64,000 nucleotides of DNA from Aquimarina brevivitae. Lineage in GTDB: Bacteria > Bacteroidota > Bacteroidia > Flavobacteriales > Flavobacteriaceae. The first letter of the stretch is position 1; every line of letters starts with the position of its first letter. Shown piece after piece: positions 26,401-43,002 of this stretch. The stretch is taken from NCBI RefSeq assembly GCF_004216895.1, contig NZ_SGXE01000001.1, positions 124,001-188,000 on the forward strand, read 5' to 3'. The notes beneath the pieces were generated by a model. It saw nothing but the letters and a program-made list of their open reading frames with translations, did no database searches and was not told where the DNA came from. The translations under genes and the position numbers were made by a program.

Positions 26401-27138
26401 TTACAATTCATCTAACAATTGTTGCGCCTGTTCATAATCTTCTGCTTCTTTTGGAATAGCTTGTAATACAGCTTTACACGCTTCAAACTTCTTTTGTTTC
26501 AAAAGATTTAAGGCTTCAAACCACATTGCACGGTATTTAAAGATAGAACTGCCGTTTTTTAATTCCATGAAAATGTCTGAAGCTTCATTATACTTGTTTT
26601 GCTCTAACAAACTTAGTCCATAATAGAATTGCAACTCTGAATTAGCTTTGTCTGTGTGTAACAACGTACTCAATAGGATTTCTGCTGCTTTATAATTTTG
26701 TTGATTGAAAGCCTGTTCTGCTTCTTTTATTGTTCCTTGTTCGGCACTTCTTTGCGTAAGACTTAACTGAGGTATTGCAGCAAAATCTGCATAGGACGGA
26801 TTGGTTGGGTAAAAGAAATAAGTTCCTAGTAATATTGCCACACAAGCCGCTGCAGCATAAGCCCAATTAGGCAATTTAATAACTTTAGTTTTGTGCTCTT
26901 GCTTGTTGGTTTTAAAATAGGTATCACTTACCCGATCTAAGGTGTTTTTTAATTCCTGTTCTTCTGTTGAGGTATTAAATGTGGCATCAAGGTAATCGTG
27001 CAATGCCGTGTATGTATCAAACTCTTCTTTAAGTTCGGCATCAGACATCAATAAGTCTGAAAACTTTTGACGCTCCTCTTGCGATAAGATGTCATTGCAA
27101 TACGAATCAAACAGTAAATATTTCTCTTCCGGGGTCAT
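26401..27138 (-). CDS. Putative membrane anti-sigma factor with periplasmic TPR domain
   Basis: 245 residues. Residues 1-85 form a small acidic helical domain (LFDSYCNDILSQEERQKFSD, then DAELKEEFDTYTALHDYL) of the type found at the N-termini of Bacteroidetes anti-sigma proteins. One membrane helix follows (NWAYAAAACVAILLGTYFF, about 91-110), and then a C-terminal TPR domain (about 130-245: EAEQAFNQQNYKAAEILLST, SELQFYYGLSLLEQNKYNEA, RAMWFEALNLLKQKKFEACK). The start codon overlaps the sigma-factor stop (ATGA), so the two are made together. By topology the head faces the cytoplasm and the TPR the periplasm. Anti-sigma function is inferred from order, overlap and architecture. Confidence 0.7.
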   Translation of the reverse strand: MTPEEKYLLFDSYCNDILSQEERQKFSDLLMSDAELKEEFDTYTALHDYLDATFNTSTEEQELKNTLDRVSDTYFKTNKQEHKTKVIKLPNWAYAAAACVAILLGTYFFYPTNPSYADFAAIPQLSLTQRSAEQGTIKEAEQAFNQQNYKAAEILLSTLLHTDKANSELQFYYGLSLLEQNKYNEASDIFMELKNGSSIFKYRAMWFEALNLLKQKKFEACKAVLQAIPKEAEDYEQAQQLLDEL

Positions 27139-27722
27139 AGCATTTTCTTTATGTATTCAAATCTAGGAGAGCTTCTAACCAATTCTGTTAGTTTGCCTAT
27201 GCATAAGGATTTCTTTTTACGAACATATCCATAAGATTGTCCTAATTGCTTGGCTACTTCTTCCATAGATTTAACAGTAAACGTTAATTTTAATAGTTCT
27301 TTACAGGCGTTCCCTAATTGATCAAACATGGCTTTAAAAAGATCATTTTTAGCTTCAAAAAGTGCTGTTTCTTCCATCAGGTCTAAACTTCCATCATCTT
27401 TAGATACAACCTCTTCATTAATTGTTACCCCTTTATTGGAGGTTTTGTGGATTTGATTTATCCACTTGCGTTTACATAAAAGAAAAAAATAAGCATCAAA
27501 AGGACACGTTAACCCAAAACCTTTTTCCTTTGCCTGTTTATAGATTACAACTAACACTTCTTGAATAATGTCCTGAGCTCGGGCTTCATCCCCACTATTC
27601 TTTTTAATATACCCTATCACCTTTGGCGCAAACTTTTCGTAAATCTCAGTAATGAGTCGAGTGTCATTGTGTACGAGCGCGTCAATATATTTTTGATCTG
27701 AATGAAGATCCTTTTGTTTCAT
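27135..27722 (-). CDS. ECF-type RNA polymerase sigma factor
   Basis: 195 residues. Region 2 is seen in LITEIYEKFAPKVIGYIKKN and DEARAQDIIQEVLVVIYKQA (-10 recognition and core binding). Region 4 is seen in LGNACKELLKLTFTVKSMEE followed by VAKQLGQSYGYVRKKKSLCI (helix-turn-helix for the -35). Region 3 is missing, as in group 4 (ECF) factors. It is overlapped by the putative anti-sigma gene. Two divergent or nearby genes (27826, 29007) share a promoter-like motif unlike the housekeeping consensus, the probable targets of this factor. Confidence 0.85.
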   Translation of the reverse strand: MKQKDLHSDQKYIDALVHNDTRLITEIYEKFAPKVIGYIKKNSGDEARAQDIIQEVLVVIYKQAKEKGFGLTCPFDAYFFLLCKRKWINQIHKTSNKGVTINEEVVSKDDGSLDLMEETALFEAKNDLFKAMFDQLGNACKELLKLTFTVKSMEEVAKQLGQSYGYVRKKKSLCIGKLTELVRSSPRFEYIKKML

Positions 27723-27767
27723 AAATACGGCATTATTGCATCTAATTTAAAAAAAGTTTGAGAGCAA

Positions 27768-27806
27768 AGGGTAACAAAAAAGCAATTGGTCTGATATAAG
27801 GGTGTA
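27768..27806 (+). promoter_or_regulatory. Putative ECF sigma promoter, site A
   Basis: AGGGTAACAA at 27768-27777, 15 bases, then GATATAAG-G-GTGTA ending at 27806. Site B (28941-28979) has the same two blocks at the same spacing. The GTAAC block resembles the AAC-containing -35 elements of ECF promoters. It lies just upstream of the 27826 gene. Confidence 0.65.
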
Positions 27807-27825
27807 AATGAAAAATTTAAACACA

Positions 27826-28863
27826 ATGAAAACAAAAATTGAAACACATGTAATTTTGAATAAAAGTAGAATTACTACCGCTAAAATCTTAAGTAACATT
27901 TTTATGACCCTGTTAATCGTCTTACTAGTAAGCTGTAAATCCGATGATGATACGCAGCCATTTGAAGAGTCATTTGACGGAGAAGCGTTACAACAAGCTA
28001 TACAAGAGGCTAGAGCTGAAAACGTGCAAAGTTTTGCGATCACAGCAGAAACAGGTGGTGAAGTTCAAGGAGAAGAAGGTACCATATTAAGTTTTGGCCC
28101 GAATGCTTTTGAAGATCAAAATGGTAACCCTGTCACCGGATCGGTAACTATAGAACTCCTAGAAGTATATGACAAATCAAAAATGGTACTTGCTAAATTG
28201 CCTACTAACGGTAAAAGACCTGATGGTACCGTAGAAACCTTAAAATCCGGAGGAGAATTTTTCATCAATGCTACACAAGCTGGTGAAAATTTGACCCTTG
28301 CAACCAATTTTATGCTCTTTGCGCCTGCAGCTGAATTTGATGAAGGTATGCAATTATTTAATGGAGTAGCAAATGACTGCCCAGAACCTGATGTAGCCTG
28401 TGATGTTGTTTGGGAAGAAGAAGAACAAGGCGGGCTAGAACCTATGCAGCGCGAGGGTCCTGACGGTCAGGGCGTATCTGGTTATGGTGGATTTCTAAGT
28501 AATTTTGGTTGGACAAACATCGATAGATGGTTTAGTGATCCAAGACCTAAAACTACACTTTATGTTAATGTGCCAGAAGGTTTTGATGACACCAATTGTA
28601 ATGTATACGTATCTTATGACGGAGAACCAACTGCATTAGCTTTATTAGATATCTACAACACCGAAACCGAATTATTCTCGGAACATTATGGTCAAATACC
28701 GATTGGGTTAGAGGTGCACATCATTTTTGTTTCTATTCAGGATGATCAATATGTATATGCAATTCAACCCACTACTATCGAGGAAGATCATACTGAAGTT
28801 ATCACAGAAACTTCTACAGCAACCGAAGCCGAGTTGGTCGCATTAATTAATGACCTTCCTTAA
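27826..28863 (+). CDS. Lipoprotein of the putative sigma regulon
   Basis: 345 residues from the ATG at 27826. A first ATG at 27808 lies only 2 bases after promoter site A, so it would have practically no leader; the second ATG fits better. Lipobox LLIVLLVSCKSDDD. The region after about residue 75 (TILSFGPNAFEDQNGNPVTG SV split here, then ELLEVYDKSKMVLAKLPTNG) resembles a small beta-sandwich anchor domain. Cys pairs (DCPEPDVACDVV) lie mid-protein. The protein is predicted to be surface- or outer-membrane-attached. No enzymatic motif seen. Confidence 0.7.
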   Translation: MKTKIETHVILNKSRITTAKILSNIFMTLLIVLLVSCKSDDDTQPFEESFDGEALQQAIQEARAENVQSFAITAETGGEVQGEEGTILSFGPNAFEDQNGNPVTGSVTIELLEVYDKSKMVLAKLPTNGKRPDGTVETLKSGGEFFINATQAGENLTLATNFMLFAPAAEFDEGMQLFNGVANDCPEPDVACDVVWEEEEQGGLEPMQREGPDGQGVSGYGGFLSNFGWTNIDRWFSDPRPKTTLYVNVPEGFDDTNCNVYVSYDGEPTALALLDIYNTETELFSEHYGQIPIGLEVHIIFVSIQDDQYVYAIQPTTIEEDHTEVITETSTATEAELVALINDLP

Positions 28864-28903
28864 TCTAAGTTATTACCAAAGCCGTTCACAGCTACTAATT
28901 TTT

Positions 28904-28933
28904 AAATCCGGAAAATTTTTTCCGGATTTTTTT
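28904..28933 (+). terminator. Terminator after the 27826 lipoprotein gene
   Basis: AAATCCGGAAAA / TTTTCCGGATTT (12 bp) followed by T4G. It separates this gene from promoter site B eight bases downstream. Confidence 0.8.
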
Positions 28934-28940
28934 GTCTTCT

Positions 28941-28979
28941 AGGGTAACAACTTATGATGTGTTATGATATAAGAGTGTA
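28941..28979 (+). promoter_or_regulatory. Putative ECF sigma promoter, site B
   Basis: AGGGTAACAA at 28941-28950, 15 bases, then GATATAAG-A-GTGTA ending at 28979, 27 bases before the ATG at 29007. Apart from the R position the two blocks are identical to site A, while the 15-base spacers differ, as expected for a promoter rather than a copied repeat. Confidence 0.65.
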
Positions 28980-29006
28980 TTACAAAAACTTAATTCATTT
29001 TCAAAC

Positions 29007-30236
29007 ATGTCAACAAAAGCAAAAAATAGTACATCACCGAACAATAGTAGGTCTGTACAACATCTAATTTCTAGAATTTTAGTAAGCGGTATAATCGTTT
29101 TAAGTATCCTAGGTTGTGAACAAGACAATGCTATAACCGATTTACAAACGAACACTCCGATTTTTGACCTTGATCTTTTTGAACAAAACATCATTGACTA
29201 TATCAATGCTGGAGGGGACACACCCGTTGGTTGGGCATACACCATTAGTAAAGACGGTAACTTATCGAGATCAAATGCGTTTGGTAAAGCAAGAACAGCA
29301 GCAGATGGAACTTTAAATTTTACACCACAAAAGGAAATCAATGTTGCCAGCGTATCTAAATTTTATACCGCTATTGCAGCTATGCAATTACTTGAAGCCA
29401 ACAATTTGACTATAGAGGATAAAATTAATACCTGGCTGCCTGATACATGGGTCAAGGGTCCTGGTGTGTCTGAGTTAACTTTTAAAGACCTACTGAAACA
29501 CGAATCGGGTTTGCAAAGCACTAATACCAATTTTGATACCACACTGGGGTATGAAGGCTTGCAAAATTGTATACAAACCGGAGTTGTCAACTCAACTACC
29601 AGAAATTACCTCAACGTTAATTTTGCATTGTTTAGGGTATTGATCCCATCCTTGTGGAGTAATCTCGAAGGAAGTCCTGCTATTGATATTGAAAATGATG
29701 CCAACACTCAGTTTATGTATTTGCTTTATATGCAGCAACATGTCTTTGATCCACTATCGTTACCATTAGTCGGGTGTGTCCCAGAAGATAGAGAAACCGC
29801 TACACTATATTATAATGTTAATAACCCAAACAATGGGGGTAATGGTCAATATTATGGCAGCTGGAATAACAAATCTGGTGGTGGAGGCTATTTTATGACA
29901 ACAATGGAGATGGCCAAAGTGAATGCTTATTTTGAACACACCGAAGTATTAGTTTCTAATGAACAAAAAGCTATTATGAAACTACATCGGTTGGGTATGG
30001 ATACTGCAGATCCTATTGATGAAATCCACGGTAATTATTATAGTAAAGCGGGCAGTATTGGAACTTCAAATGACCCTACAACCTCGCAAGGTGTACAAAC
30101 ACAAATCGTTATGTTTCCTTTCAACGGAATTGATTGCGTAGTAGTTATGAATTCACAAGGGGTTACCTTGCAAGGTACCATCAGTCTTCGGCAAATGATT
30201 TACAATGCCTACAATAATGCTTGGGTACAACCCTAA
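29007..30236 (+). CDS. Serine hydrolase lipoprotein (beta-lactamase / penicillin-binding fold)
   Basis: 409 residues. Lipobox region VLSILGCEQ (Cys about 37) after a somewhat long charged N-terminus. The class C beta-lactamase-like fold is recognised by the S-x-x-K motif (NVASVSKFYTAIAAMQLLEA), the following KDLLKHESGL (typical of this family: LLTHTSGL) and a Y-x-N motif (RNYLNVNFAL). The HxG triad is not clear. Probably a cell-envelope D-aminopeptidase/carboxypeptidase-like enzyme or esterase exposed outside the inner membrane. Promoter site B lies directly upstream. Confidence 0.78.
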   Translation: MSTKAKNSTSPNNSRSVQHLISRILVSGIIVLSILGCEQDNAITDLQTNTPIFDLDLFEQNIIDYINAGGDTPVGWAYTISKDGNLSRSNAFGKARTAADGTLNFTPQKEINVASVSKFYTAIAAMQLLEANNLTIEDKINTWLPDTWVKGPGVSELTFKDLLKHESGLQSTNTNFDTTLGYEGLQNCIQTGVVNSTTRNYLNVNFALFRVLIPSLWSNLEGSPAIDIENDANTQFMYLLYMQQHVFDPLSLPLVGCVPEDRETATLYYNVNNPNNGGNGQYYGSWNNKSGGGGYFMTTMEMAKVNAYFEHTEVLVSNEQKAIMKLHRLGMDTADPIDEIHGNYYSKAGSIGTSNDPTTSQGVQTQIVMFPFNGIDCVVVMNSQGVTLQGTISLRQMIYNAYNNAWVQP

Positions 30237-30251
30237 TGACCTACTAATAGG

Positions 30252-30294
30252 ATAAAGCTTTCCGAAGGAAATTGCTGCGGAAAGCTTTATTTGT
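30252..30294 (+). terminator. Terminator-like hairpin after the serine hydrolase gene
   Basis: ATAAAGCTTTCCG / CGGAAAGCTTTAT, 13 bp perfect, loop of 13, followed by TTTG. Confidence 0.7.
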
Positions 30295-30332
30295 AAACAA
30301 ATATTTATATTTAAAGTATTCAAACACAATTC

Positions 30333-32315
30333 ATGAGGGGCAGATTCATTTACATAGCGCTAGTAATTTTTTTTACAAAATCTATTTTTGGTCAGGATAT
30401 GGAAAGGGATTCCATCCCCAGAATTGCACCGATAAGCTATGATATTGAAGGCAATCGAGTCCGATTTAACGCTACCATGCCTGCACTTCATCAAATCGCA
30501 GGTGCACCAAAAGCTTTTTACACCTATTATTGGGAATTTGGAGATGGTGATTACAGCCAAAAAGAAAAACCAGAACATCAATATACACAGCCTGGGAATT
30601 ATACGGCTCAACTTTGGGCCACCAATAATTATGACAACGGACCTCCACCAGCTAGCAGACCCGTTTCAGTAAAGGTGTCAAGTACCATAGATGAAGCCTC
30701 GCTAGACACCTCATCATTATTTGAAGAAGATGAACATTTAATGATTAAAACGAATAGGGACCCAGTGCCTAATCAAGAATTAGTGTTAATTACCGCTTAC
30801 AAGAATACCCAAAATTATGTAAGTAACGGTAAACTATATTTATTTTATAATGATACTAAGTTTAAAGATAACAACTTTACACTTGAAGATACTAGAATGT
30901 ATCATGGAGAGAAAATAGTTCCCTTAGAAAATTTAGCAATTCAATTAGAGCCAAACCATACAAATAGTTATTTAGCCAGCACTACGGAAACGTCGAATAC
31001 TATACGAAATCTTATTCTTCAGGATAGTACCAAAAGAACAAATCTACCCTTGACCTTAGAAGATTCGAAGGCACAATATCGAAATTATCAGGTGGTTGAA
31101 TTTTATGATATGCAACCGGGAGAAGAACGGAATATCTTTAGAACTTTAAAAACGACCCCTGAAATGCTTAAAGATACCAGTGCGATCGTTACCCTGAGGA
31201 GTATTTATGTGCCCGATGATAATTATGATAATCATACCGTAAAAGAAACGGAGATGGAGATTGTAACCTCTCACGATCCCAATAAAATGTCATCCAACGG
31301 ATGGCTTATGAATTATAGGCTTGTACGGTTTAAACGTTTAAAATTTAAAATTCGGTTTCAGAACAACGGAGAAGGACCCGCAAATACGATACGATTAGAA
31401 ACGGATGTCCCTGAAATGTTTGATAAATCTACCTTAAATATTGAAGGTATCTATCCAGATTGCCCCATTTGCCCAAAAAACAAAGAAGTAAATTATAGCT
31501 GTTTGGATACTGTACTTCAAAAAGATAAAATAATTTTTAAGTTTAACAGGATTTACCTACCCGGAAGCCAACAAAAAAATGTAGCAGAAATCGACTCTAC
31601 AAAAGGGTTTGTAAAGTACTCCCTAAAGTTTGGTGAGAATTTTCACAAAAAGAAAACCAAAAGCAGAACAGCCATCTATTTTGATAAAAACGAACCGATT
31701 ATCACCAATTATGCAGTGACTCGCTTTATGCCAGGTATCTCTATTGGAGCTAAAGCCGGGTATAGTTGGTCCCCTGATCTTGATAATTCGCGCGAATATT
31801 TTGTGGGCACTACCCTATCCCCTTTTAAATCCTATCGAGCCTATTATCAGGCAGAACTTATGGCATCATTAGCTAATTACGACCAAACCCGTAGGTACGA
31901 AGAGCGTACCATTAATGCAGATGGTTCAGAAAATATAGTGCGATTTACGGAATCCAATAGTTATACTACCACTACATTATATGCTGTTCCTGGATCTATA
32001 CGGTATAACGTTTCGAATTATTTTGCCATAGGTAGCGGCATACAGGCAAAAATTGATTTGACCAGCAAAAATGAACAACAAACCATTGGAGAAGGGTTCT
32101 TTCTGGATGTTGATGGGCAGCTGAATCCTAATCCAGACCTCAACCAATCCAGCAGTGCCACGATAGAAGAAAGTTTTATTAATTTTCAAACCGGGGTTTT
32201 TGTTGGTTTCAATGTGGGTACAATAAGAATTGGACCAAGTTTTGGAGCCCGATACATTCACTATTTTGATTCGCCGCATTCACAAATTCAACTGTATGGG
32301 ATTTGGAAATTTTAA
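30333..32315 (+). CDS. Exported PKD-domain protein with C-terminal barrel-like region
   Basis: 660 residues. Signal peptide (FIYIALVIFFTKSIFGQ), PKD domain at about 40-115 (YYWEFGDGDYSQKE, YTQPGNYTAQLWATNN), a middle region with the SHDPNKM motif common in Bacteroidetes surface proteins (about 312-318; IRFQNNGEGPANTIRLETDV follows), and a C-terminal part (about 470-660) of amphipathic strands ending in IQLYGIWKF, which suggests an outer-membrane barrel. No T9SS sorting signal. The stop overlaps the TPR-CHAT gene start by 20 bases, so the two are co-translated. It could be the outer-membrane sensor or partner of the protease. Confidence 0.65.
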   Translation: MRGRFIYIALVIFFTKSIFGQDMERDSIPRIAPISYDIEGNRVRFNATMPALHQIAGAPKAFYTYYWEFGDGDYSQKEKPEHQYTQPGNYTAQLWATNNYDNGPPPASRPVSVKVSSTIDEASLDTSSLFEEDEHLMIKTNRDPVPNQELVLITAYKNTQNYVSNGKLYLFYNDTKFKDNNFTLEDTRMYHGEKIVPLENLAIQLEPNHTNSYLASTTETSNTIRNLILQDSTKRTNLPLTLEDSKAQYRNYQVVEFYDMQPGEERNIFRTLKTTPEMLKDTSAIVTLRSIYVPDDNYDNHTVKETEMEIVTSHDPNKMSSNGWLMNYRLVRFKRLKFKIRFQNNGEGPANTIRLETDVPEMFDKSTLNIEGIYPDCPICPKNKEVNYSCLDTVLQKDKIIFKFNRIYLPGSQQKNVAEIDSTKGFVKYSLKFGENFHKKKTKSRTAIYFDKNEPIITNYAVTRFMPGISIGAKAGYSWSPDLDNSREYFVGTTLSPFKSYRAYYQAELMASLANYDQTRRYEERTINADGSENIVRFTESNSYTTTTLYAVPGSIRYNVSNYFAIGSGIQAKIDLTSKNEQQTIGEGFFLDVDGQLNPNPDLNQSSSATIEESFINFQTGVFVGFNVGTIRIGPSFGARYIHYFDSPHSQIQLYGIWKF

Positions 32316-34902
32316 GGTATCGCTGTGGGCGTTACTTATTATGATTTGCGTCCACTATGGAAGTAGTAAAGCCGCTCAAATTGAAAAAAAATCTGCAACT
32401 CTCCTCTATCAATCCCTTGATAAATTTTTGGCAAACCCCAATCCTGATGCACTATCAAATTTAACCAGCTTTACTTATGATCTCCAAAAGCAGTTAAACA
32501 CCAAAGATGATCACTTGGCCTGGGTAATAACACTGTGTAATCTCGCCTATTACCATAATCAATATCAGCATAAAAACACAGCAATTTCACTATATGAAAC
32601 CGCCTGGGCAGCCTTTAACTCGCATCAACTTACGAATTACGACCTTATTGCTAACTGCCTACAACCCTTGGGAAATCTGTACATACAAACTGGGGACTTG
32701 CCCAAAGCGGAAACCACAATACTATCGTATTTACATTCAGCTCAAGAAAAACAAAATAATAGCGCTATCATCGCGGGTATCACCAACTTATCGATAGTTT
32801 ATCATCAAAAAAAGCAATATGAAAAGGCTATTCGTATTATACAAGAAGGGCTGAAGATAGCACCAAATAACACTTCGCTACTTATCAATTTAGCCTCTAA
32901 TGAACTAAGCTTGAAAAATTATTCAAATGCAAAAAATATAGCAGAAAAGGTGATTGAATTAGACGCTTCAAAAGTTAAAGCCTACACCATAATGGCTGCG
33001 GTATATTTATCGCAGGATGTCCATGATAAAGCTATTGAATATTTAAAAAAGGCCAAAGCCAAGATGCTTAATACTACGTTTCTTCCTAGGGAACTTGCAA
33101 TGATTGAACTAGAATTTGTGGATATTTTACTTCAAAAGAACGACTATGCGTTAGCAAACTCCAGACTAAAAGAAGTTTATTCGATTTTACTAGGCACCTA
33201 TGACTATAACCAGAATTTACCAGATGACGATGTATTACTTGCCGACAGAGTCCTATTAAATGCATTGGATGCTCAGGGAGCAATTTATACAGCACTCCGA
33301 CAAAATAACGCTGCACTACTTGCATACGAAAAGGCTTTTAAGGTGCACGATTTAATCAACCAACACTATTTGCTTCAGGATAGTCAGCTTTTGTCACATG
33401 GGCAGAATAGAATTCGCACAGAAAACTACATAGCAATTGCCTATGAACTATACCAATCCACTTCCGACAAAAAATATATCGACAAGGCTTTTTGGGCAGT
33501 GGAGCGTACGAAGTCGCCAATAGTTACCAAATCGCTATATGATAAAAAACGCTTACTACAAATAGAAAATGACTCCTTAGTGATTAGGTACAAGACATTA
33601 CAAAACTCGCTTGCCGTACTTTCTGTAAAACTTTTTAAAGAGAAATCTAAAGGAAATGCGGCTCGTGTAGCTATAATTCAAAACCTATTAGATGAGCGTC
33701 AAAAAACAAGTATAGCGCTCAAAAAAACTTATGCATTACTAGAACAAAAGTATCCCGAACTAAATGCAAAACAACCAATTGCTACAGTTGAAGAAATACA
33801 ACAAGAAGTACAGAAGTTACAAACAACCTTGCTGGAATATTTTTATGGAACCAGCCACATCTATTTGTTTACCATATCTTCAAACAATATTATTTTTGAA
33901 AAAGTTGCCGAAGTGACGGCAGCGGAACTAATCATCAAAAGCTATATTTCATTCTTTAATACAACCGATAGGATAAACAATGACATCAGCGCTTTTACAA
34001 AAGCCGCCTATGAATTATATACCGTGCTTAACCTTCCTAAGCAAACAGAAAAATTGTTAATTATCCCCGATGATATTTTATATTTTGTTCCATTTGAAGC
34101 CTTACTGACTCAAAAAACAAATACACTTCAATATTCAAAAATGCCTTTTTTACTACGGTCAACAATGCTCAGCTATGAAATCTCGGCAAGTAAATATGTT
34201 GATCAAAGAAAGGGTGTTCTTCAAAAACCATCAGTTTTAGGTGTCTTTCCAGTTTTTAAAGGCAGTAGTAATGAACTGTCGTATTCTGAGTTAGAGCAAA
34301 AAGCAATTCAGCAACAATTAGATGGAATGTTTTTAAACCAAAAGGAAGCTACATTTTCTACTTTTAAAGAGCACGCCAATACTTATACTATTTTACATCT
34401 TTCCACCCATGCCACTGCAGGTTCATATCAAGAGCCAGCAAATATCTCTTTTTTTGATCAAGATATTCCCATTGATAGATTATATGGTATGAACCTAAGG
34501 GCAAATCTAGTAGTTTTAAGTGCTTGCGAAACCGGAATTGGCAAAAGAGTTAAAGGAGAAGGACCGCTTAGTGTAGGACGCGCTTTTCAATATGCTGGTA
34601 TTGAAAACGTATTGTTTTCTTTATGGAAAGTAAATGATGAATCTACCTACACTCTGATGGATTACTTTTATGAGCATTTTACCGACCACGGAAAACCAGA
34701 CCTGGCATTACATCAAGCCAAGCTTGACTATATTAACGATTCAACTATCTTAAACCAAAAGAAATCACCCTATCATTGGGCTTCCTTTGTATATTATGGA
34801 AAGCAGCAGAAAATAATTGAAACAACTAATTTTCTCCATTATATCTTTATAACTTTACTATTACTAATTATCTTGGGCATTATTAGTAAACTTCGTACCT
34901 AA
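32296..34902 (+). CDS. Exported, membrane-anchored TPR-CHAT protease
   Basis: 868 residues from the ATG at 32296, chosen because it starts a proper signal peptide (FKVSLWALLIMICVHYGSSK); an earlier ATG lacks one. Residues about 40-400 are TPR repeats (for example EKAIRIIQEGLKIAPNNTSL, KAYTIMAAVYLSQDVHDKAI). A helical linker follows, then a CHAT domain (about 530-830) with catalytic His705 (LHLSTHATA) and Cys744 (LVVLSACETGIG) both intact. A C-terminal membrane helix (FLHYIFITLLLLIILGIIS, about 845-863) anchors it. The catalytic part should therefore lie outside the cytoplasm. CHAT proteases are caspase/gingipain relatives. The aspartic protease gene follows with no gap. Confidence 0.85.
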   Translation: MGFGNFKVSLWALLIMICVHYGSSKAAQIEKKSATLLYQSLDKFLANPNPDALSNLTSFTYDLQKQLNTKDDHLAWVITLCNLAYYHNQYQHKNTAISLYETAWAAFNSHQLTNYDLIANCLQPLGNLYIQTGDLPKAETTILSYLHSAQEKQNNSAIIAGITNLSIVYHQKKQYEKAIRIIQEGLKIAPNNTSLLINLASNELSLKNYSNAKNIAEKVIELDASKVKAYTIMAAVYLSQDVHDKAIEYLKKAKAKMLNTTFLPRELAMIELEFVDILLQKNDYALANSRLKEVYSILLGTYDYNQNLPDDDVLLADRVLLNALDAQGAIYTALRQNNAALLAYEKAFKVHDLINQHYLLQDSQLLSHGQNRIRTENYIAIAYELYQSTSDKKYIDKAFWAVERTKSPIVTKSLYDKKRLLQIENDSLVIRYKTLQNSLAVLSVKLFKEKSKGNAARVAIIQNLLDERQKTSIALKKTYALLEQKYPELNAKQPIATVEEIQQEVQKLQTTLLEYFYGTSHIYLFTISSNNIIFEKVAEVTAAELIIKSYISFFNTTDRINNDISAFTKAAYELYTVLNLPKQTEKLLIIPDDILYFVPFEALLTQKTNTLQYSKMPFLLRSTMLSYEISASKYVDQRKGVLQKPSVLGVFPVFKGSSNELSYSELEQKAIQQQLDGMFLNQKEATFSTFKEHANTYTILHLSTHATAGSYQEPANISFFDQDIPIDRLYGMNLRANLVVLSACETGIGKRVKGEGPLSVGRAFQYAGIENVLFSLWKVNDESTYTLMDYFYEHFTDHGKPDLALHQAKLDYINDSTILNQKKSPYHWASFVYYGKQQKIIETTNFLHYIFITLLLLIILGIISKLRT

Positions 34903-35340
34903 ATGATTTCACTACGCCAGTATTTATCCAAAAAAGGATACGCTCCAATCAAATTAAACTATACGATTACCAATCATTTTGAGATAGAAGCTTCTATCAA
35001 TGGAGTAACCGGAAGATTTATTGTAGATACCGGAGCCTCTAACTCTTGCTTAGATTTTGAAGCGATTTCGAAATTTAAACTAATAGCAGAAGATAGTGAA
35101 GTAAAAGCCGCTGGTGCTGGATCCAATGACATGCTTACGCAATTATCCCAAAAGAACAGCATTACCATAGGAAAATGGTCCAAAAAAAATATTCCTCTAA
35201 TTCTTTTTGATTTAACCCATGTTAATAGTGCCTTAATACAACATAACGCTACCCCAGTTGATGGTATCATAGGTGCAGATGTCTTACAAACAGGAAAAGC
35301 TGTTATTGATTACGAATACAGTAATCTTTACTTAAAATAA
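34903..35340 (+). CDS. Retropepsin-like aspartic protease
   Basis: 145 residues, one pepsin-like lobe, so it must dimerise to be active. Active-site motif FIVDTGASNSCLDF with Asp42, flap region around AGAGSNDML, and the conserved C-terminal IIGADVLQTGKAVIDYE. No signal peptide is visible, so it is presumably cytosolic, or exported only if it rides with a partner. Its ATG directly follows the TAA of the TPR-CHAT gene, so the two proteases form one translational unit. Confidence 0.82.
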   Translation: MISLRQYLSKKGYAPIKLNYTITNHFEIEASINGVTGRFIVDTGASNSCLDFEAISKFKLIAEDSEVKAAGAGSNDMLTQLSQKNSITIGKWSKKNIPLILFDLTHVNSALIQHNATPVDGIIGADVLQTGKAVIDYEYSNLYLK

Positions 35341-37104: not shown

Positions 37105-37659
37105 ATGGAAGGATACATTGGAGAAGTCCGCATGTTTGGCGGAAATTTTGCCCCAAGAGCTTGGGCATTTTGTGAAGGGCAATTGCTGCCAATTTCAAAT
37201 AATACTGCACTTTTTTCCATCATAGGCACCGTCTATGGAGGAGATGGTAGAACTACATTTGCACTTCCGGACTTAAGAGGTTGTGTGCCAATTGGTCCAG
37301 GAAGAGGACCAGGATTAAGCGATAGAATAATAGGCCAACGTGGTGGAAGCGAAGAAAACACCCTTAACGTAACCCAAATCCCATCTCACAATCATGCAGC
37401 TGTTACTAATGTGAGTTCTGCCGAAGCCTCTCAAAGTGCGGCAACACAAGGGTCCTCTATTGGTACGCCAGGAGCCCTGGATGGTCGATCTTTCTCACCA
37501 ACATTAGGATTTAACACATCAACTCCTGATGTTTCTTTGAATGCACAATCGATCACGGTAGGAAACACAGGGGGAAATTTACCTGTGGAAAATATGCAAC
37601 CGTGGTTATCTTGTTACTACATCATATGTCTACAAGGAATTTTCCCATCTAGAAATTAA
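37105..37659 (+). CDS. Phage tail collar-domain protein (MdpB-like), copy 1
   Basis: 184 residues, almost entirely the Collar domain: MFGGNFAPRAWAFCEGQLLP, ALFSIIGTVYGGDGRTTFAL, PDLRGCVPIGPGRGPGL, then a His-containing IPSHNHAAVT segment and an Asn/Ser-rich C-terminus with NMQPWLSCYYIICLQGIFPS. No signal peptide. These domains are short relatives of tail-fibre collars. Many bacteria carry them outside prophages as tandem pairs, as here, and no phage genes surround it. It lies 17 bases after the formyltransferase stop. Confidence 0.85.
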   Translation: MEGYIGEVRMFGGNFAPRAWAFCEGQLLPISNNTALFSIIGTVYGGDGRTTFALPDLRGCVPIGPGRGPGLSDRIIGQRGGSEENTLNVTQIPSHNHAAVTNVSSAEASQSAATQGSSIGTPGALDGRSFSPTLGFNTSTPDVSLNAQSITVGNTGGNLPVENMQPWLSCYYIICLQGIFPSRN

Positions 37660-37677
37660 CAATAAAAAAACACTAAT

Positions 37678-38232
37678 ATGGAAGGAACCATAGCAGAAAT
37701 CAGAATGTTTGCAGGCAACTTTGCACCCAGAAATTGGGCGTTTTGTAACGGAAGTCTAATTGCCATTTCGCAAAATCAAGCTTTATTTTCAATCTTAGGA
37801 ACTACCTATGGTGGAGATGGAAGAACGACATTTGCACTCCCTGATCTTAGAGGACGAGTTCCTATAGGGCCAGGTCGAGGACCAGGCTTAACGGAAAGGC
37901 GATTAGGAGAACGGTCGGGTACTGAAACCAATATCTTAAACATTACTCAATTACCCTCGCACACACATAGCGTAACGATGAATGTAAGCTCTGGAGATGC
38001 AACACAAAGTGCAGCAACTAATGGAGCTTCAATAGCAACTCCAGGAGCATTAGACGGCAGGTCTTTTTCACCTACCTTAGGATATAATACCAGTACACCA
38101 GATATTGGATTAAATCAACAATCGGCTACTATTGGAAATACTGGTGGAAACCAGTCCGTAAACAACATGCAGCCCTGGCTTGGTATACATTTTATCATTT
38201 GCCAGTTTGGGACTTTTCCCTCAAGAAACTAA
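37678..38232 (+). CDS. Phage tail collar-domain protein (MdpB-like), copy 2
   Basis: 184 residues, the same length as copy 1 and clearly a tandem duplicate (shared AxNFAPRxWAFC, LFSILGTTYGGDGRTTFALP, PDLRGRVPIGPGRGPGL, QPWLGIHFIICQFGTFPSRN). The Cys of LRGC in copy 1 is Arg here. It is 18 bases downstream of copy 1. A hairpin follows the stop and probably limits transcription into the methyltransferase gene. Confidence 0.85.
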   Translation: MEGTIAEIRMFAGNFAPRNWAFCNGSLIAISQNQALFSILGTTYGGDGRTTFALPDLRGRVPIGPGRGPGLTERRLGERSGTETNILNITQLPSHTHSVTMNVSSGDATQSAATNGASIATPGALDGRSFSPTLGYNTSTPDIGLNQQSATIGNTGGNQSVNNMQPWLGIHFIICQFGTFPSRN

Positions 38233-38285: not shown

Positions 38286-39344
38286 ATGAATCATACTGTT
38301 CAGGAATTAAAAAACATTACCAGGAAACTACTTGATACTCCAATGGAATCAGGTCAGGAAACTGTGCGCGATTTAAGTCACTTTTTTCAATTATTTCTGA
38401 CTCAAGAAAACAGCTATGAAGAAATTATAGTCGATCACGGAAAAGCACTTTCAACAGCTCAAGCTGCAAGTTGCGTCTTGGATTATAAGAGAACTATTCA
38501 ATTCATCAAAGGGATTTATCTCGCTATTTTAGATAAAAAAGAGAAATTACCAGAAGAAACTATTTCGATCCTTTATGCAGGATCAGGACCATTCGGAACT
38601 TTGCTAGTACCATTATTGCCTTTATTTGATCCTGAAGAACTCTCCGTTACATTTATAGATATAAATCAAGGCTCGGTTAATACGTTAAAGCAAGTCATCC
38701 AAAAATTGGATTTAGAAAACTACGTTAATAATATATTACTTGAAGATGCGATAAACTACCAACCACCTAAAGATGAATTGCCAGATATCATTATATCTGA
38801 GACTATGGCTTATGCACTGACTACAGAGCCTCAGGTTGCTATAATGAATAGTTTAGCACCGCTATTAAAAACAGAAGGGGTTCTTATCCCTGAAGCAATC
38901 GAACTAGCATTAGATTATACGTCTTACGCAAAGGAACCCATTCTTAGCGTTTGTAATAATGAGTACACTATAAAAAATACCGGATCCAGGTATTTCCTTA
39001 AAAATAAGTCAAAAATCATTTATAAAATAGATAAGAATACTCCAAAGGATATAGAAAAATCATTGCGTTTTGAGACCGATTGGTTTAAAAGACCCGACTC
39101 AATTGAAGAAGCACCAGATATTTGTATTTACACCTTTGTACAAATCTATAAAAACATCTGTTTGAACCAGGCAGATTCCTTGATTACTAACCCCTATTGT
39201 GTTGGATCCCTATACAATATTGAAAAAGGTGCTAAATTCAAATTAAAGTACTGCACCCAACCGGTACCTAAATGGAATTTGGCTACACTCAAATATGAAG
39301 AACACTTCACAAAAAATCAAAATCATGAAACAGCCAACCTATAA
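38286..39344 (+). CDS. Class I SAM-dependent methyltransferase
   Basis: 352 residues. Motif I AGSGPFGTLLVPLLPLF, then FIDINQGSVNTL (acidic motif II) and DIIISETMAYALTTEP (post-motif; the SETM region recalls the double-E loop of PRMT-type enzymes). N-terminal helical extension of about 90 residues (STAQAASCVLDYKRTIQFIK). It overlaps the giant repeat-protein gene by 20 bases, so the two are translated together. The substrate may be the co-encoded exported protein or the collar proteins; unproven. Confidence 0.72.
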   Translation: MNHTVQELKNITRKLLDTPMESGQETVRDLSHFFQLFLTQENSYEEIIVDHGKALSTAQAASCVLDYKRTIQFIKGIYLAILDKKEKLPEETISILYAGSGPFGTLLVPLLPLFDPEELSVTFIDINQGSVNTLKQVIQKLDLENYVNNILLEDAINYQPPKDELPDIIISETMAYALTTEPQVAIMNSLAPLLKTEGVLIPEAIELALDYTSYAKEPILSVCNNEYTIKNTGSRYFLKNKSKIIYKIDKNTPKDIEKSLRFETDWFKRPDSIEEAPDICIYTFVQIYKNICLNQADSLITNPYCVGSLYNIEKGAKFKLKYCTQPVPKWNLATLKYEEHFTKNQNHETANL

Positions 39345-42300
39345 ATTATTAATCCTAAGCATTTCCTTGATTTTAGGATTATACACTGCTCAGGCACAAT
39401 TCACAGAAACCTTTGAGTCGTTAGGAAACAACATTACTAGTTTTACAAGTAATGGTCAACCTTTTGAAACTACTGGAGGTTTCAGAACCCAAACTAGTTT
39501 TTCAGGCACTGGTGCCAGTGGCTCTGACGTGTACTTAGATAATGATTCCAATACAGGTACAGGTACCATATATTCCATAAAAACTTCTGATGCAGCGAAC
39601 TTTACTATCAAAGATGTTGACATTTTTTTATCCGAGGATAATGCCAATACAGTAGGAGGCAATGGCGGAATTATAATAAGAGGAAAGCAAGGTGGTGGAA
39701 CAATATTTACAATTACAAAAACTACTGGTATTCCAACTGACTTTAGCACTGATAATGGCTTTTTTAATGTAGACTTTACTATAGAAGGTGGTTCCGATAA
39801 CAGCTTAACAAACATAGATGAAGTAGAATTTGAACTCACCGGAAACTTTAATTATATCGCTGTAGATGAGTTTACCTTTGGCCCAGAAGAAACTGTTACA
39901 GATACGAGCCCACCTTCTGTGCTAACCATTGTGAGAAATGGTACTCCTCCAACCACCGCAGATGCTGTAGATTTTATAGTAACCTTTAATGAAAATGCCA
40001 ATAATGTTACGACTGATGATTTTTCCATTGATCTTACAGGATCAGCTTCGGGCTCAATAACAGGAATTACTGGAACAGGTACAACGTATACGATAAGCAC
40101 TTCTGGTATTAGTGGAGAAGGTACACTAAGTATTGATCTTAATGCTGGGACAGATATCGAAGATGATTTAGGCAATTCAGGTCCTGCTGCGTTTACTAAC
40201 GGTGAAAACCACGTGGTCTCTGCGTGCTTTTTAGAATCATTCGAAGATTTTAACACAAACGACAATACTTTTGGTAGTAATGGTATTCCTTTTACAACTT
40301 CAGGAGGTTTAGCTATTGAAACTGTTGCAGGCGCTGGTGCCAGTAATTCTGATAAATATTTGGACAATGACGGAACAGGTGCCGGAACTTATGCTATAGC
40401 CTCAACGGGAGGCGAACTATTTACCATGAAAACGCTGGATATATATTTATCCTCAATTGCCGCAGGAACAACACCTACAAACGACGGTACATTAACCATC
40501 AATGGAAAGGTTACAGGTAGTACAGTATACACAATTAGCAAAAACACAGACTTCCCTAGTTCGATAGCCAACGGGGACAATGGGTTTTTCAATATCAATT
40601 TTGCTACGGATGGTGCGGCAGATTACACCACAACCAATGTAGATGAAATTGAGATCATTATTGGCGGTTCTTTTGTATATGTAGCAATAGATCATTTTGA
40701 ATTTTGTGAAGAAGGCACGGCAGATACATTTCCACCAGAAGTTCTTAGTATTGAAGTGATAGGAAATCCTTCCTCGATAGCAGATGCAGTAGATTTTTTA
40801 GTAACCTTTAATGAAAATGTGAATAATGTTACTACTGATGATTTTAGTTTAGATACTTCAGGCACTACGGGTAATATCACAAGCCTCACAGGAACAGGAA
40901 ACTCATATACTATTTCTGTTGAAAACATATCCGGTCAAGGAACAATTAGTATAGACCTTAATGCTTCCACTGATATAACTGACGGTTTAGGCAATGGTGG
41001 GCCTGCTGCTTTTACAGCGGGTGAAAATCATATTGTATCCGAATGCTTTATCGAAAATTATGAGTCTTTTTCGCCAGGAGCAACTACCTTTACAAGTAAT
41101 GGTGTTCCTTTCACCTTAACCAACGGTCTCGATGTATTCAGTCAAAGCGGTGCTGGGACTAATGGGTCTGATATCTTTTTAGACAATGAAGGTGCAGGCA
41201 CGGGAACATATGCTATTGCCACGACAGACAATTCTGTTTTCAACCCTAATACAATGTATATATATGTCTCCTCCATAGCTGCAGGTGGTTCTCCTACTGA
41301 TGATGGTACTTTGACCATAAGAGGAAAGTTTAATGGTAGTGTAGTATATTCCATCGATCTAAACTCTGGGAACACCTCATTCCCTACTTCAGTTGGAGAA
41401 GGAAATAACGGGTTTTTCTTAATAGATTTTGCCACCTCAGGAGCATCTGATTATACCGATATAAATATTGATGAAATTGAAATTGAAATTTTTTCAAGTT
41501 TTGTATATGTAGCTGTAGATAGTTTTGAATTTTGTCAGGATGATACGGCTCCTACAGGGTATACAGTTGCTATCGATCAAAGCCCAATAAATAGTTCCAA
41601 TGTGGGTACCGCAAGTTTTACCTTTACCAGTGCTGAAGTTGGAGCAACCTTTGACTATACCTTTAGTAGTAGTGGTGGTGGATCTAATGTTACCGGTTCT
41701 GGAACTATAGCCACAGCAACAGATCAGATCACCGGTATTGACCTTAGTGGTTTAGGCGATGGAATTATTACACTAAGTGTTACCTTAACCGATACGGCTA
41801 GCAATACCGGAAGCCCAGCTACAGATACGACAACTAAAGATACCACAGCTCCAGCTGGATATACCGTAAGCATAGATCAAAGCCCAATAAATAGTTCCAA
41901 TGTTGGTGCCGCAAGTTTTACCTTTACCAGTGCTGAAGTTGGAGCAACCTTTGACTATACATTTAGTAGTAGTGGTGGTGGATCTAATGTTACCGGTTCC
42001 GGAACTATAGCCACAGCAACAGATCAGATCACCGGTATTGACCTTAGTGGTTTAGGCGATGGAATTATTACGCTAAGTGTTACCTTAACCGATACGGCTA
42101 GCAATACCGGAAGCCCAGCTACGGATACGGCAACTAAAGATACCACAGCTCCAGCTGGATATACCGTAAGCATAGATCAAAGCCCAATAAATAGTTCCAA
42201 TGTGGGTGTCGCAAGTTTTACCTTTGCCAGTGCAGAAGTAGGTGCAACGTATGATTATACCTTTAGTAGTAGTGGTGGTGGATCTAATGTTACCGGTTCC

Positions 42301-43002
42301 GGAACTATAGCCACAGCAACAGATCAGATCACCGGTATTGACCTTAATGGTTTGGGCGACGGAACCATTACACTTAGCGTTACCTTAACCGATACAGTAG
42401 GAAATGAAGGAAATGCGGCTACGGACACTGAAACTAAAGACACCACACTGCCCTCAGTTACCATAAATTCTACTGAACCCTCACCAACGGACAATACAGC
42501 GATTGAAGTAACTGTAGTTTTTTCAGAAATCGTAACAGGTTTCGAATTATCAGATTTAGTGATAACCAATGGAGGTGCTACTAATTTAACAGGCAGTGGA
42601 AGCTCTTATTCCTTTACATTAATTCCAAGTTCAGTGGGTACAGTAAGCGTAGCTATAAATGCTGATGTCGCTACAGATACCGCTGGTAATGGAAATACAT
42701 CCGCTGCTCAATTCAGTATAGAGTTTGATCCGGATTTAGGAATTGAAGACGAATTACTGGCAGAAGGGTTACGGATATACCCAAATCCTACCTCAGGGGT
42801 TTTAAATATTACTGTAGCTAATAATATAAATCTGCAGTTATTTGAAATATTTGACCTAACCGGTAAAAAGGTGTTTGAAATGAAAACTACAACGATTAAT
42901 GAAGTTTATGAACTTGAAATTTCTAACTTGACAAGCGGTATTTATCTGCTAAAAGTAAATGCTACGAATGCTACAGCGGTTCAACAGATAGTAATTCGTT
43001 AA
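39325..43002 (+). CDS. Giant exported repeat protein with T9SS sorting domain (1,225 residues)
   Basis: Start at the ATG at 39325, followed by a clean signal peptide (LLILSISLILGLYTAQAQ). Three repeats of about 270 residues each combine a lectin-like or choice-of-anchor-type domain (ETFESLGNNITSFTSNGQPF) and, in the first two, an Ig-like domain (VDFIVTFNENANNVTTDDFS). Three copies of a 100-residue Ig-like repeat at 41557-42456 follow, then a further Ig-like domain (INSTEPSPTDNTAIEVTVVF) and a T9SS type A C-terminus (EGLRIYPNPTSGVLNI ... SGIYLLKV). Surface adhesin or matrix-type protein. It overlaps the methyltransferase end by 20 bases. Confidence 0.85.
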   Translation: MKQPTYKLLILSISLILGLYTAQAQFTETFESLGNNITSFTSNGQPFETTGGFRTQTSFSGTGASGSDVYLDNDSNTGTGTIYSIKTSDAANFTIKDVDIFLSEDNANTVGGNGGIIIRGKQGGGTIFTITKTTGIPTDFSTDNGFFNVDFTIEGGSDNSLTNIDEVEFELTGNFNYIAVDEFTFGPEETVTDTSPPSVLTIVRNGTPPTTADAVDFIVTFNENANNVTTDDFSIDLTGSASGSITGITGTGTTYTISTSGISGEGTLSIDLNAGTDIEDDLGNSGPAAFTNGENHVVSACFLESFEDFNTNDNTFGSNGIPFTTSGGLAIETVAGAGASNSDKYLDNDGTGAGTYAIASTGGELFTMKTLDIYLSSIAAGTTPTNDGTLTINGKVTGSTVYTISKNTDFPSSIANGDNGFFNINFATDGAADYTTTNVDEIEIIIGGSFVYVAIDHFEFCEEGTADTFPPEVLSIEVIGNPSSIADAVDFLVTFNENVNNVTTDDFSLDTSGTTGNITSLTGTGNSYTISVENISGQGTISIDLNASTDITDGLGNGGPAAFTAGENHIVSECFIENYESFSPGATTFTSNGVPFTLTNGLDVFSQSGAGTNGSDIFLDNEGAGTGTYAIATTDNSVFNPNTMYIYVSSIAAGGSPTDDGTLTIRGKFNGSVVYSIDLNSGNTSFPTSVGEGNNGFFLIDFATSGASDYTDINIDEIEIEIFSSFVYVAVDSFEFCQDDTAPTGYTVAIDQSPINSSNVGTASFTFTSAEVGATFDYTFSSSGGGSNVTGSGTIATATDQITGIDLSGLGDGIITLSVTLTDTASNTGSPATDTTTKDTTAPAGYTVSIDQSPINSSNVGAASFTFTSAEVGATFDYTFSSSGGGSNVTGSGTIATATDQITGIDLSGLGDGIITLSVTLTDTASNTGSPATDTATKDTTAPAGYTVSIDQSPINSSNVGVASFTFASAEVGATYDYTFSSSGGGSNVTGSGTIATATDQITGIDLNGLGDGTITLSVTLTDTVGNEGNAATDTETKDTTLPSVTINSTEPSPTDNTAIEVTVVFSEIVTGFELSDLVITNGGATNLTGSGSSYSFTLIPSSVGTVSVAINADVATDTAGNGNTSAAQFSIEFDPDLGIEDELLAEGLRIYPNPTSGVLNITVANNINLQLFEIFDLTGKKVFEMKTTTINEVYELEISNLTSGIYLLKVNATNATAVQQIVIR
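41557..42456 (+). repeat. Three 300-bp in-frame repeats (100 residues each)
   Basis: Units start at 41557, 41857 and 42157, spaced exactly 300 bases. Each begins GYTV-x-IDQSPINSSNVG and ends TKDTTAP. The first two are nearly identical in DNA. Related units occur in the next gene. Confidence 0.9.

Follow-up and report, generated by a model that had tools for sequence, protein, structure and literature searches.

An extracytoplasmic function (ECF) sigma factor, a one-helix anti-sigma factor with a TPR domain and a TPR-CHAT protease are encoded close together at positions 26401..35340 of the stretch analysed here (the window: 64,000 nucleotides of Aquimarina brevivitae assembly GCF_004216895.1, contig NZ_SGXE01000001.1, positions 124,001–188,000). 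The locus raises the question of what such a protease does beside a sigma factor, and whether the anti-sigma factor is its substrate. The original prediction held that a TPR-CHAT protease, extracytoplasmic and independent of CRISPR (clustered regularly interspaced short palindromic repeats), may cleave the anti-sigma factor, with specificity provided by contact between the TPR domains of both proteins. The interpretation as a whole is partly supported: the central inference, cleavage of the anti-sigma factor, has gained strong computational support from gene linkage and from covariation between a predicted cut site and the predicted substrate pocket, while TPR–TPR contact has not. We consider it probable that the CHAT protein is a periplasmic site-1 protease of separase type which, independently of CRISPR, cuts the anti-sigma factor after R130 and frees the sigma factor, and that it belongs itself to the sigma regulon. 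The locus is thus best read as an envelope-to-gene signalling module.

Recurrent linkage of the sigma/TPR anti-sigma pair to CHAT genes in related genomes was the check named beforehand, and we found it to be present. In six genomes of the same genus, 25 of the 26 TPR anti-sigma genes with strong matches (E < 1e-15) lie within 8 kb of a CHAT gene (36 CHAT matches in all), where 0.6 would be expected (binomial p = 1e-39). The genome of the window carries three CHAT genes, each of which neighbours a sigma gene as well as a gene for a one-helix TPR anti-sigma factor; this is far above chance, and the proteins of the paralogous modules are only 23–29% identical to those of the window, the two other CHATs and anti-sigma factors being at 24–27%. 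Counting from the protease, 27 of the 36 same-genus CHATs share a stretch with a sigma/anti-sigma pair (L072 holds two CHATs and one anti-sigma factor), nine have no pair in the stretch (L074, L076, L077, L081, L082, L083, L087, L088 and L102), and L086 is an additional pair found with an improved profile. When loci were chosen by the anti-sigma profile alone, 73 of 99 had a CHAT in the fetched stretch: 46 of the 60 regions fetched among the matches listed for 198 genomes in the phylum set, and 27 of the 39 that gave an anti-sigma row in the class set (60 chosen among the matches listed for 395 genomes, 40 fetched). A scan of named genomes for CHAT gave 33 loci, 16 of which match only TPR stretches of the query; among the 17 that we used (L037–L053), ten have a clear TPR anti-sigma factor, L049 has a weak match and six have none. 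The ten come from Flavobacteriaceae (including Aquimarina, Croceitalea and Maribacter), Bacteroidales, Chitinophagaceae and an unplaced Bacteroidetes record. Of 108 pairs from the larger stretches, 49 have their anti-sigma and CHAT genes in divergent, 37 in convergent and 22 in codirectional orientation, and in the divergent loci 61 of the 69 intervening genes on the CHAT strand show a signal-peptide-like start by a simple hydropathy rule.

Covariation between the two proteins points to one residue of the anti-sigma neck as their probable contact. We performed a blind mutual-information scan of 234 anti-sigma by 249 CHAT columns (58,266 column pairs) on 108 protein pairs, which remained of 111 linked rows when short alignments and extra anti-sigmas per CHAT were removed. 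Arg130 of the anti-sigma factor with CHAT position 667 ranked first (9.2 standard deviations) and with CHAT 781 second (6.7 standard deviations), and the next partners of Arg130 were CHAT 742 and 703, near the catalytic residues. Excluding rows gapped at a column from that column's tables, the counts were 86, 3, 1 and 16 for R130/E667 (p = 4e-15) and 88, 1, 5 and 12 for R130/D781 (p = 3.5e-11). With six more pairs added (114 in total), a separate full-length MAFFT alignment again ranked R130 with 667 and 781 first and second, this time of 191,178 column pairs; Arg occurs with both acids in 88 of the 114, absence of Arg goes with neither acid in 14, and 12 show other combinations. In the nine genomes that contain both kinds of pair, 23 of 27 pairs were concordant, compared with a mean of 15.0 upon re-pairing of partners within each genome (p = 0.00075). 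As a control, we looked for partners of anti-sigma residue 130 in the sigma factor, and the best of them reached 2.9 standard deviations, rank 175 of 39,546 (97 triples). The full-length alignment showed no clear over-representation of TPR columns: among its 100 best pairs, 66 fell in CHAT columns below 500, where 60% of the columns lie, and 35 in the TPR columns of the anti-sigma factor, which make up 47%. Specificity through TPR–TPR contact was thus not borne out, the leading signal being that of the neck Arg with the predicted CHAT S1 pocket.

Column 130 holds Arg in 93 of the 114 pairs, 19–30 residues past the membrane helix (median 26), and is the seventh most conserved column of the entire anti-sigma factor. 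The following residue is Gly in 47 of these 93 pairs, Ser in 28, Asn in 8, Asp in 4, Ala in 3, Thr in 2 and Gln in 1. In the AlphaFold model of the anti-sigma factor, residues 120–133 form a coil, with Arg130 four residues ahead of the first TPR helix. CHATs lacking both acids are paired with anti-sigma factors that have Lys, Gln, Met, Leu, Thr, Ser, Ile, Val or Ala at this column. Another variant was seen in L206, L219–L221, L127 and L189, where CHAT 781 is Glu and the anti-sigma necks have Met-Ser near the usual site, several of them reading P-G-L-P-V-x-M-S; these sequences suggest that a Met-Ser cut site may replace Arg in these pairs. With a Glu781-type CHAT as query and a threshold of E 1e-60, six matches were obtained from 295 genomes, spread over five of them.

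As modelled, the window CHAT has E667 in the helix that comes first behind strand 647–651, and D781 as the opening residue of the helix behind strand 771–775. According to excerpts of PMC4626109, two acids hold the P1-Arg (the residue before the cut) in modelled C. elegans separase: Glu917, from the same region as Asp163 of gingipain and Asp365 of MALT1, and Asp1082, at the beginning of helix alpha-4. By position, E667 and D781 would be the corresponding S1 acids for a P1-Arg. At the place of D781, the TPR-CHAT chains 8d9f–8d9h, which we take to be S. brodae Craspase, have Ser in a profile alignment. S. brodae Craspase cuts L|D and not after Arg, as stated in an excerpt of PMC11106740.

The CHAT protein has what a clan CD peptidase of this family (PF12770) needs, a CHAT fold with catalytic His and Cys. 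Its start was taken at the ATG at 32296, which gives 868 amino acids and the numbering H705/C744; in this numbering the predicted N-terminal hydrophobic stretch, catalytic pair and C-terminal membrane helix are all in place. His705 and Cys744 are kept in 84 of 84 linked CHATs, and in the larger set both are kept in 110 of 111 linked rows, the remaining one being cut short by the end of its contig. The AlphaFold model (mean predicted local distance difference test, pLDDT, of 88) has its best PDB fold match in Csx29 of the active Craspase complex (8eey_B, E 5.9e-14), followed by other Craspase chains and human separase. By hydropathy and charge, the anti-sigma membrane helix is present in all 114 pairs, with the head inside in 107, ties in 4 and outside in 3, and the CHAT C-terminal helix in 104, with the tail inside in 93 of them, ties in 9 and outside in 2; the N-terminal hydrophobic stretch of CHAT is above the cut-off in 90 of 114. 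Because of these orientations, the ectodomains of CHAT and the anti-sigma factor would share the periplasm, so that protease and proposed substrate are placed in one compartment by hydropathy and charge prediction only. CHATs of L144, L148, L150 and L155, from other families of the phylum, end without a C-terminal anchor. At L131:6848-10896, the anti-sigma gene is followed by a 250-amino-acid CHAT-only protein with a membrane helix and, on the opposite strand, by an 855-amino-acid CHAT relative that is gapped where His and Cys would align, possibly a split or duplicated protease.

As regards the anti-sigma factor, it shows features of class I membrane anti-sigma factors, with a helical cytosolic head, a single membrane helix and a gene that overlaps (ATGA) the ECF sigma gene, as had been predicted; NCBIfam anti-sigma profiles match it far below their cut-off. 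A search for solved relatives with its profile returned nearly only TPR proteins, plus two weak matches to mevalonate kinase, among 60 of 152 matches, none of these 60 being named an anti-sigma factor or Csx30. None of the PDB folds matched its model with an E value of 0.001 or lower, and the top-scoring ones were TPR proteins.

An alignment of seven intergenic stretches brought the motif GGGTAAC to our notice. It stands before 15 of 108 CHAT operons, compared with 20 of the 1008 other genes in those loci (p = 1.5e-7), and is the most enriched 7-mer upstream of CHAT operons. Both sites in the window operon have the form GGGTAAC-N17-GATAT and share a continuation beyond it. We presume a likeness of this form to ECF promoters, and it may be the promoter read by the sigma factor of the locus. 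The full motif has seven matches genome-wide, two of them in the CHAT operon; of the five others, two lie upstream of lipoprotein-like genes (L243 and L244) and three inside open reading frames (L242, L245 and L246). Over the whole window, GGGTAAC has 13 matches (for instance at 7383, 11010, 13396, 44968 and 59082) against 4.6 expected, a number that none of 100 shuffles reached.

Taken together, these observations lead us to propose the following mechanism. The ECF sigma factor would be held by the one-helix anti-sigma factor, whose periplasmic part is predicted to consist of a short extended neck followed by the TPR domain. The TPR-CHAT protein, of the separase/Csx29 type, would be exported and anchored to the inner membrane through its C-terminal helix, and because of this predicted anchoring its active site would face the anti-sigma neck. 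A signal, possibly relayed by the exported lipoprotein and PKD protein of the operon, would activate CHAT, which would cut after Arg130 while Glu667 and Asp781 bind this Arg in the S1 pocket. Without its TPR domain, the remaining membrane stub would become a substrate of an M50 site-2 protease, setting the sigma factor free; one M50 match is found in the window genome, away from the locus (E 4.6e-49). The freed sigma factor may transcribe the lipoprotein/CHAT operon from the promoter-like GGGTAAC-N17-GATAT sites, closing a positive loop.

Several results weigh against this proposal. The sole exception among the 26 same-genus anti-sigma genes, L073 (G003:C1:1618000-1637000), has kept sigma and anti-sigma factors where CHAT is missing; its neighbours match the L004 and L071 loci, most of them being 71–93% identical, and in comparison with L071 its sigma factor is 67% and its anti-sigma factor only 38% identical. 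Given this locus and the 26 of 99 anti-sigma-picked loci with no CHAT in the fetched stretch, the sigma factor can outlive the protease. The neck Arg is kept in half of the anti-sigma factors with no CHAT in the stretch (14 of 28, versus 90 of 111 linked ones, p = 0.0014). Three pairs without Arg retain both acids (L188, and L159 and L163 with a gap at the column), Arg is kept without E667 in L137, L145 and L045 and with Glu at 781 in L202, and L219 was scored as having Arg and neither acid, probably through misalignment. A quick tree built from the 106 rows with both traits has 9 changes of E667, 6 of D781 and at least 8 of Arg130; in the test on supported branches, E667 changes the same way in about 4.5 cases and the opposite way in 0 (p = 0.06–0.25) and D781 in about 3.0 and 0.1 (p = 0.06–1), and with only five independent pairs such a test cannot reach significance. 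The S1 assignment of both acids follows secondary-structure order, without superposition. As for the promoter, GGGTAAC was chosen after seeing the alignment, is present in a minority of loci and precedes, in forward orientation, just 3 of 139 sigma genes; the reversed control pattern has three genome matches versus seven, and neither GTAAC nor GTTAC was found in the one flavobacterial promoter (transcriptome) paper searched. Finally, since M50 proteases occur in all 14 control genomes, the match in the window genome is not specific.

One could argue that CHAT lies only downstream of the sigma factor, as an effector protease produced in response to stress, and does not act on the anti-sigma factor. 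The promoter-like motif upstream of its operon, the state of L073 and the 26 loci lacking CHAT in the fetched stretch would all fit, but the neck Arg and the S1 acids change together locus by locus within single genomes, and no such signal links anti-sigma residue 130 to the sigma factor, so that we regard this explanation as unlikely. The same covariation would be expected if the neck Arg docked uncut in the S1 pocket, making the anti-sigma factor a securin-like pseudosubstrate inhibitor or the partner in a stable complex that is broken by a signal; separase is held by a pseudosubstrate in securin. We give docking of this kind little credence, as in 92 of 93 pairs the Arg is followed by G, S, N, D, A or T, which together with the narrow membrane distance fits a cut site, and the catalytic dyad is kept.

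A cut could also have the opposite outcome, removing a sensor domain and locking the sigma factor off, if the stub still bound it and were not processed further. In the model, the cytosolic head is indeed untouched by a cut at R130. Cuts at about such a distance from the membrane, on the other hand, start RseA-type cascades, and an M50 site-2 protease is encoded, though these are near universal; negative regulation therefore seems to us quite improbable. Lastly, Arg130 might be conserved for folding of the TPR domain, and its covariation with CHAT might reflect shared ancestry. Its modelled position just before the first TPR helix, the few independent changes on the tree and its retention in 14 of the 28 anti-sigma factors with no CHAT in the stretch would agree with that, but we find it hard to believe when the two top partners among 58,266 pairs are the S1 acid positions and the within-genome re-pairing gives p = 0.00075. 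We conclude that cleavage of the anti-sigma factor after R130 by a presumably periplasmic CHAT protease remains the favoured reading of the locus.

Features of the sigma/anti-sigma/CHAT locus, in window positions
Feature	Position	Strand	Evidence
One-helix anti-sigma factor, 245 amino acids: head of four helices in the cytosol, membrane helix, then neck and TPR domain in the periplasm	26401..27138	-	weak anti-sigma matches; helices of AlphaFold model, mean pLDDT 84
Codon of Arg130, after which CHAT is predicted to cut (P1), in the anti-sigma neck SLTQ-R-SAEQ	26749..26751	-	conservation and covariation
ECF sigma factor	27135..27722	-	PF04542 E 7.1e-6; TIGR02937 E 5.1e-16
Promoter-like GGGTAAC-N17-GATAT upstream of the lipoprotein/CHAT operon, 39 bases before the lipoprotein start	27769..27797	+	intergenic alignment, motif counts
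Lipoprotein without known family, first gene of the presumed CHAT operon	27808..28863	+	open reading frame; homologues in 11 other loci
Second GGGTAAC-N17-GATAT, 65 bases before the serine hydrolase gene	28942..28970	+	motif match
Exported serine hydrolase, beta-lactamase family	29007..30236	+	PF00144 E 1.7e-17
Exported PKD + DUF7619 + DUF7849 protein	30333..32315	+	domain matches; homologues in other loci
TPR-CHAT protease, predicted periplasmic, C-terminal membrane anchor	32296..34902	+	PF12770 E 6.8e-49; Csx29 and separase folds; mean pLDDT 88
Glu667, first predicted S1-pocket acid	34294..34296	+	covariation
Catalytic His705	34408..34410	+	invariant among linked CHATs
Catalytic Cys744	34525..34527	+	invariant among linked CHATs
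Asp781, second predicted S1-pocket acid, at helix start	34636..34638	+	covariation; model; separase comparison
Retropepsin-like aspartic protease immediately 3' of CHAT	34903..35340	+	PF13650 E 1.7e-13; PDC-M08B E 5.2e-9

Open reading frames and domain matches confirmed the predicted gene positions and order at 26401..35340, including the PKD protein on the other strand, in which we identified DUF7619 and DUF7849 as well. Two lipoprotein genes had also been proposed; their positions hold, and the first does encode a lipoprotein, the second an exported serine hydrolase. The retropepsin-like aspartic protease behind CHAT was missing from the original prediction. Homologues of the lipoprotein, PKD and aspartic protease genes were found in 11, 13 and 8 other pair-bearing loci, respectively (open reading frame search, E 1e-5 or better), the PKD count omitting two weaker matches (L176 and L190) and taking two open reading frames of L099 as one. 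The same search at E 1e-5 found no homologue of the serine hydrolase (29007-30236) among the other fetched loci; its gene, inside the operon, has a GGGTAAC-N17-GATAT site of its own. The aspartic protease is without evident signal peptide, and its homologues, which likewise lie behind CHAT, are those of L097, L099, L100, L104–L106, L109 and L111. The PKD + DUF7619 + DUF7849 protein might possibly be an outer-membrane sensor. Frameshifts or sequencing errors would explain a sigma gene in two open reading frames at L070:8689-9232 and a PKD gene in two at L099:6838-8818.

We searched positions 20000-45000 for CRISPR-like repeats and found no direct-repeat family of at least 22 bases within 90 bases. 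Seven proteins were scanned with PADLOC, and none was a Cas protein, except for a weak Csx28 match by the TPR part of the anti-sigma factor (E 0.0025). Membership in a defence system was rejected from the same scan: its single clear match is that of the aspartic protease to PDC-M08B, those of the anti-sigma factor (E 0.0025) and the PKD protein (E 0.0028) are weak, and the other four proteins have none. Further downstream, two adjoining near-duplicate proteins of 184 amino acids (37105-38232) presumably resemble the phage tail-collar/microcystin-dependent protein family, and a secreted protein of 1235 amino acids (39295-43002) shows, from its translation, near-identical tandem repeats and a C-terminal sorting-like domain.

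Beyond this locus, we lean slightly towards a phylum-wide system of extracytoplasmic caspase/separase-like signalling in Bacteroidota, in which each sigma/anti-sigma pair would have its own periplasmic TPR-CHAT site-1 protease, several modules would coexist in a cell, and cross-talk would be limited by a cut residue (Arg, or Lys/Met/Gln) matched to the S1 acids; in that case, the release of a sigma factor by such proteases would be the older design, and Craspase a relative of it that works in the cytosol under RNA guidance. If this is true, many secreted TPR-CHAT proteins of Bacteroidota gain a function, a named substrate and a cut site, bacterial anti-sigma factors gain a caspase-like site-1 protease, and the Craspase sigma circuit gains a plausible non-CRISPR background.

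No prior description of the module was found among the open-licence papers listed; the ECF classification of Casas-Pastor and colleagues is outside this coverage and may mention CHAT in an ECF group. Among known systems, Craspase/CASP of type III-E CRISPR (Csx29, Csx30 and CASP-sigma; its sigma logic appears in excerpts of PMC10028731) likewise has a TPR-CHAT protease with a sigma inhibitor as substrate, which here is proposed. It differs in that neither a CRISPR array (20000-45000) nor Cas7-11 (seven proteins scanned) was found here, in that the CHAT of the module is predicted to be exported and membrane-anchored with a membrane anti-sigma factor as its proposed substrate, and in the conserved P1-Arg, the site in Csx30 being nonconserved according to an excerpt of PMC11106740. 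DdvS/DdvA of Myxococcus xanthus (8rot, 8rw5) also joins an ECF sigma factor to a transmembrane anti-sigma factor carrying a CHAT domain, which our profile (E 1.8e-8, His and Cys aligned) and a fold match recognised; there CHAT is fused to the anti-sigma factor, whereas here it is a separate protein and the window anti-sigma factor has no CHAT match. Protease activity of DdvA was not found among the open-licence papers listed or in two DdvA excerpts of PMC4374960.

Separase (family C50) shares with the module the CHAT fold match and, by position, two S1 acids for a P1-Arg, but the module is bacterial, periplasmic by prediction, and has an anti-sigma factor as its proposed substrate. In regulated intramembrane proteolysis of the RseA/DegS/RseP type, a periplasmic cut of a one-helix anti-sigma factor near the membrane is followed by an M50 protease, the same order that we propose; here, in contrast, the proposed site-1 protease is a caspase/separase-like cysteine protease of clan CD, whose gene adjoins that of the proposed substrate and of which a cell has several copies. 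As neither the CRISPR components that mark Craspase nor a DdvA-type fusion of CHAT to the anti-sigma factor was found, the module is regarded here not as a member of these systems but as a variant that would work like Craspase, DdvA and RseA-type proteolysis.

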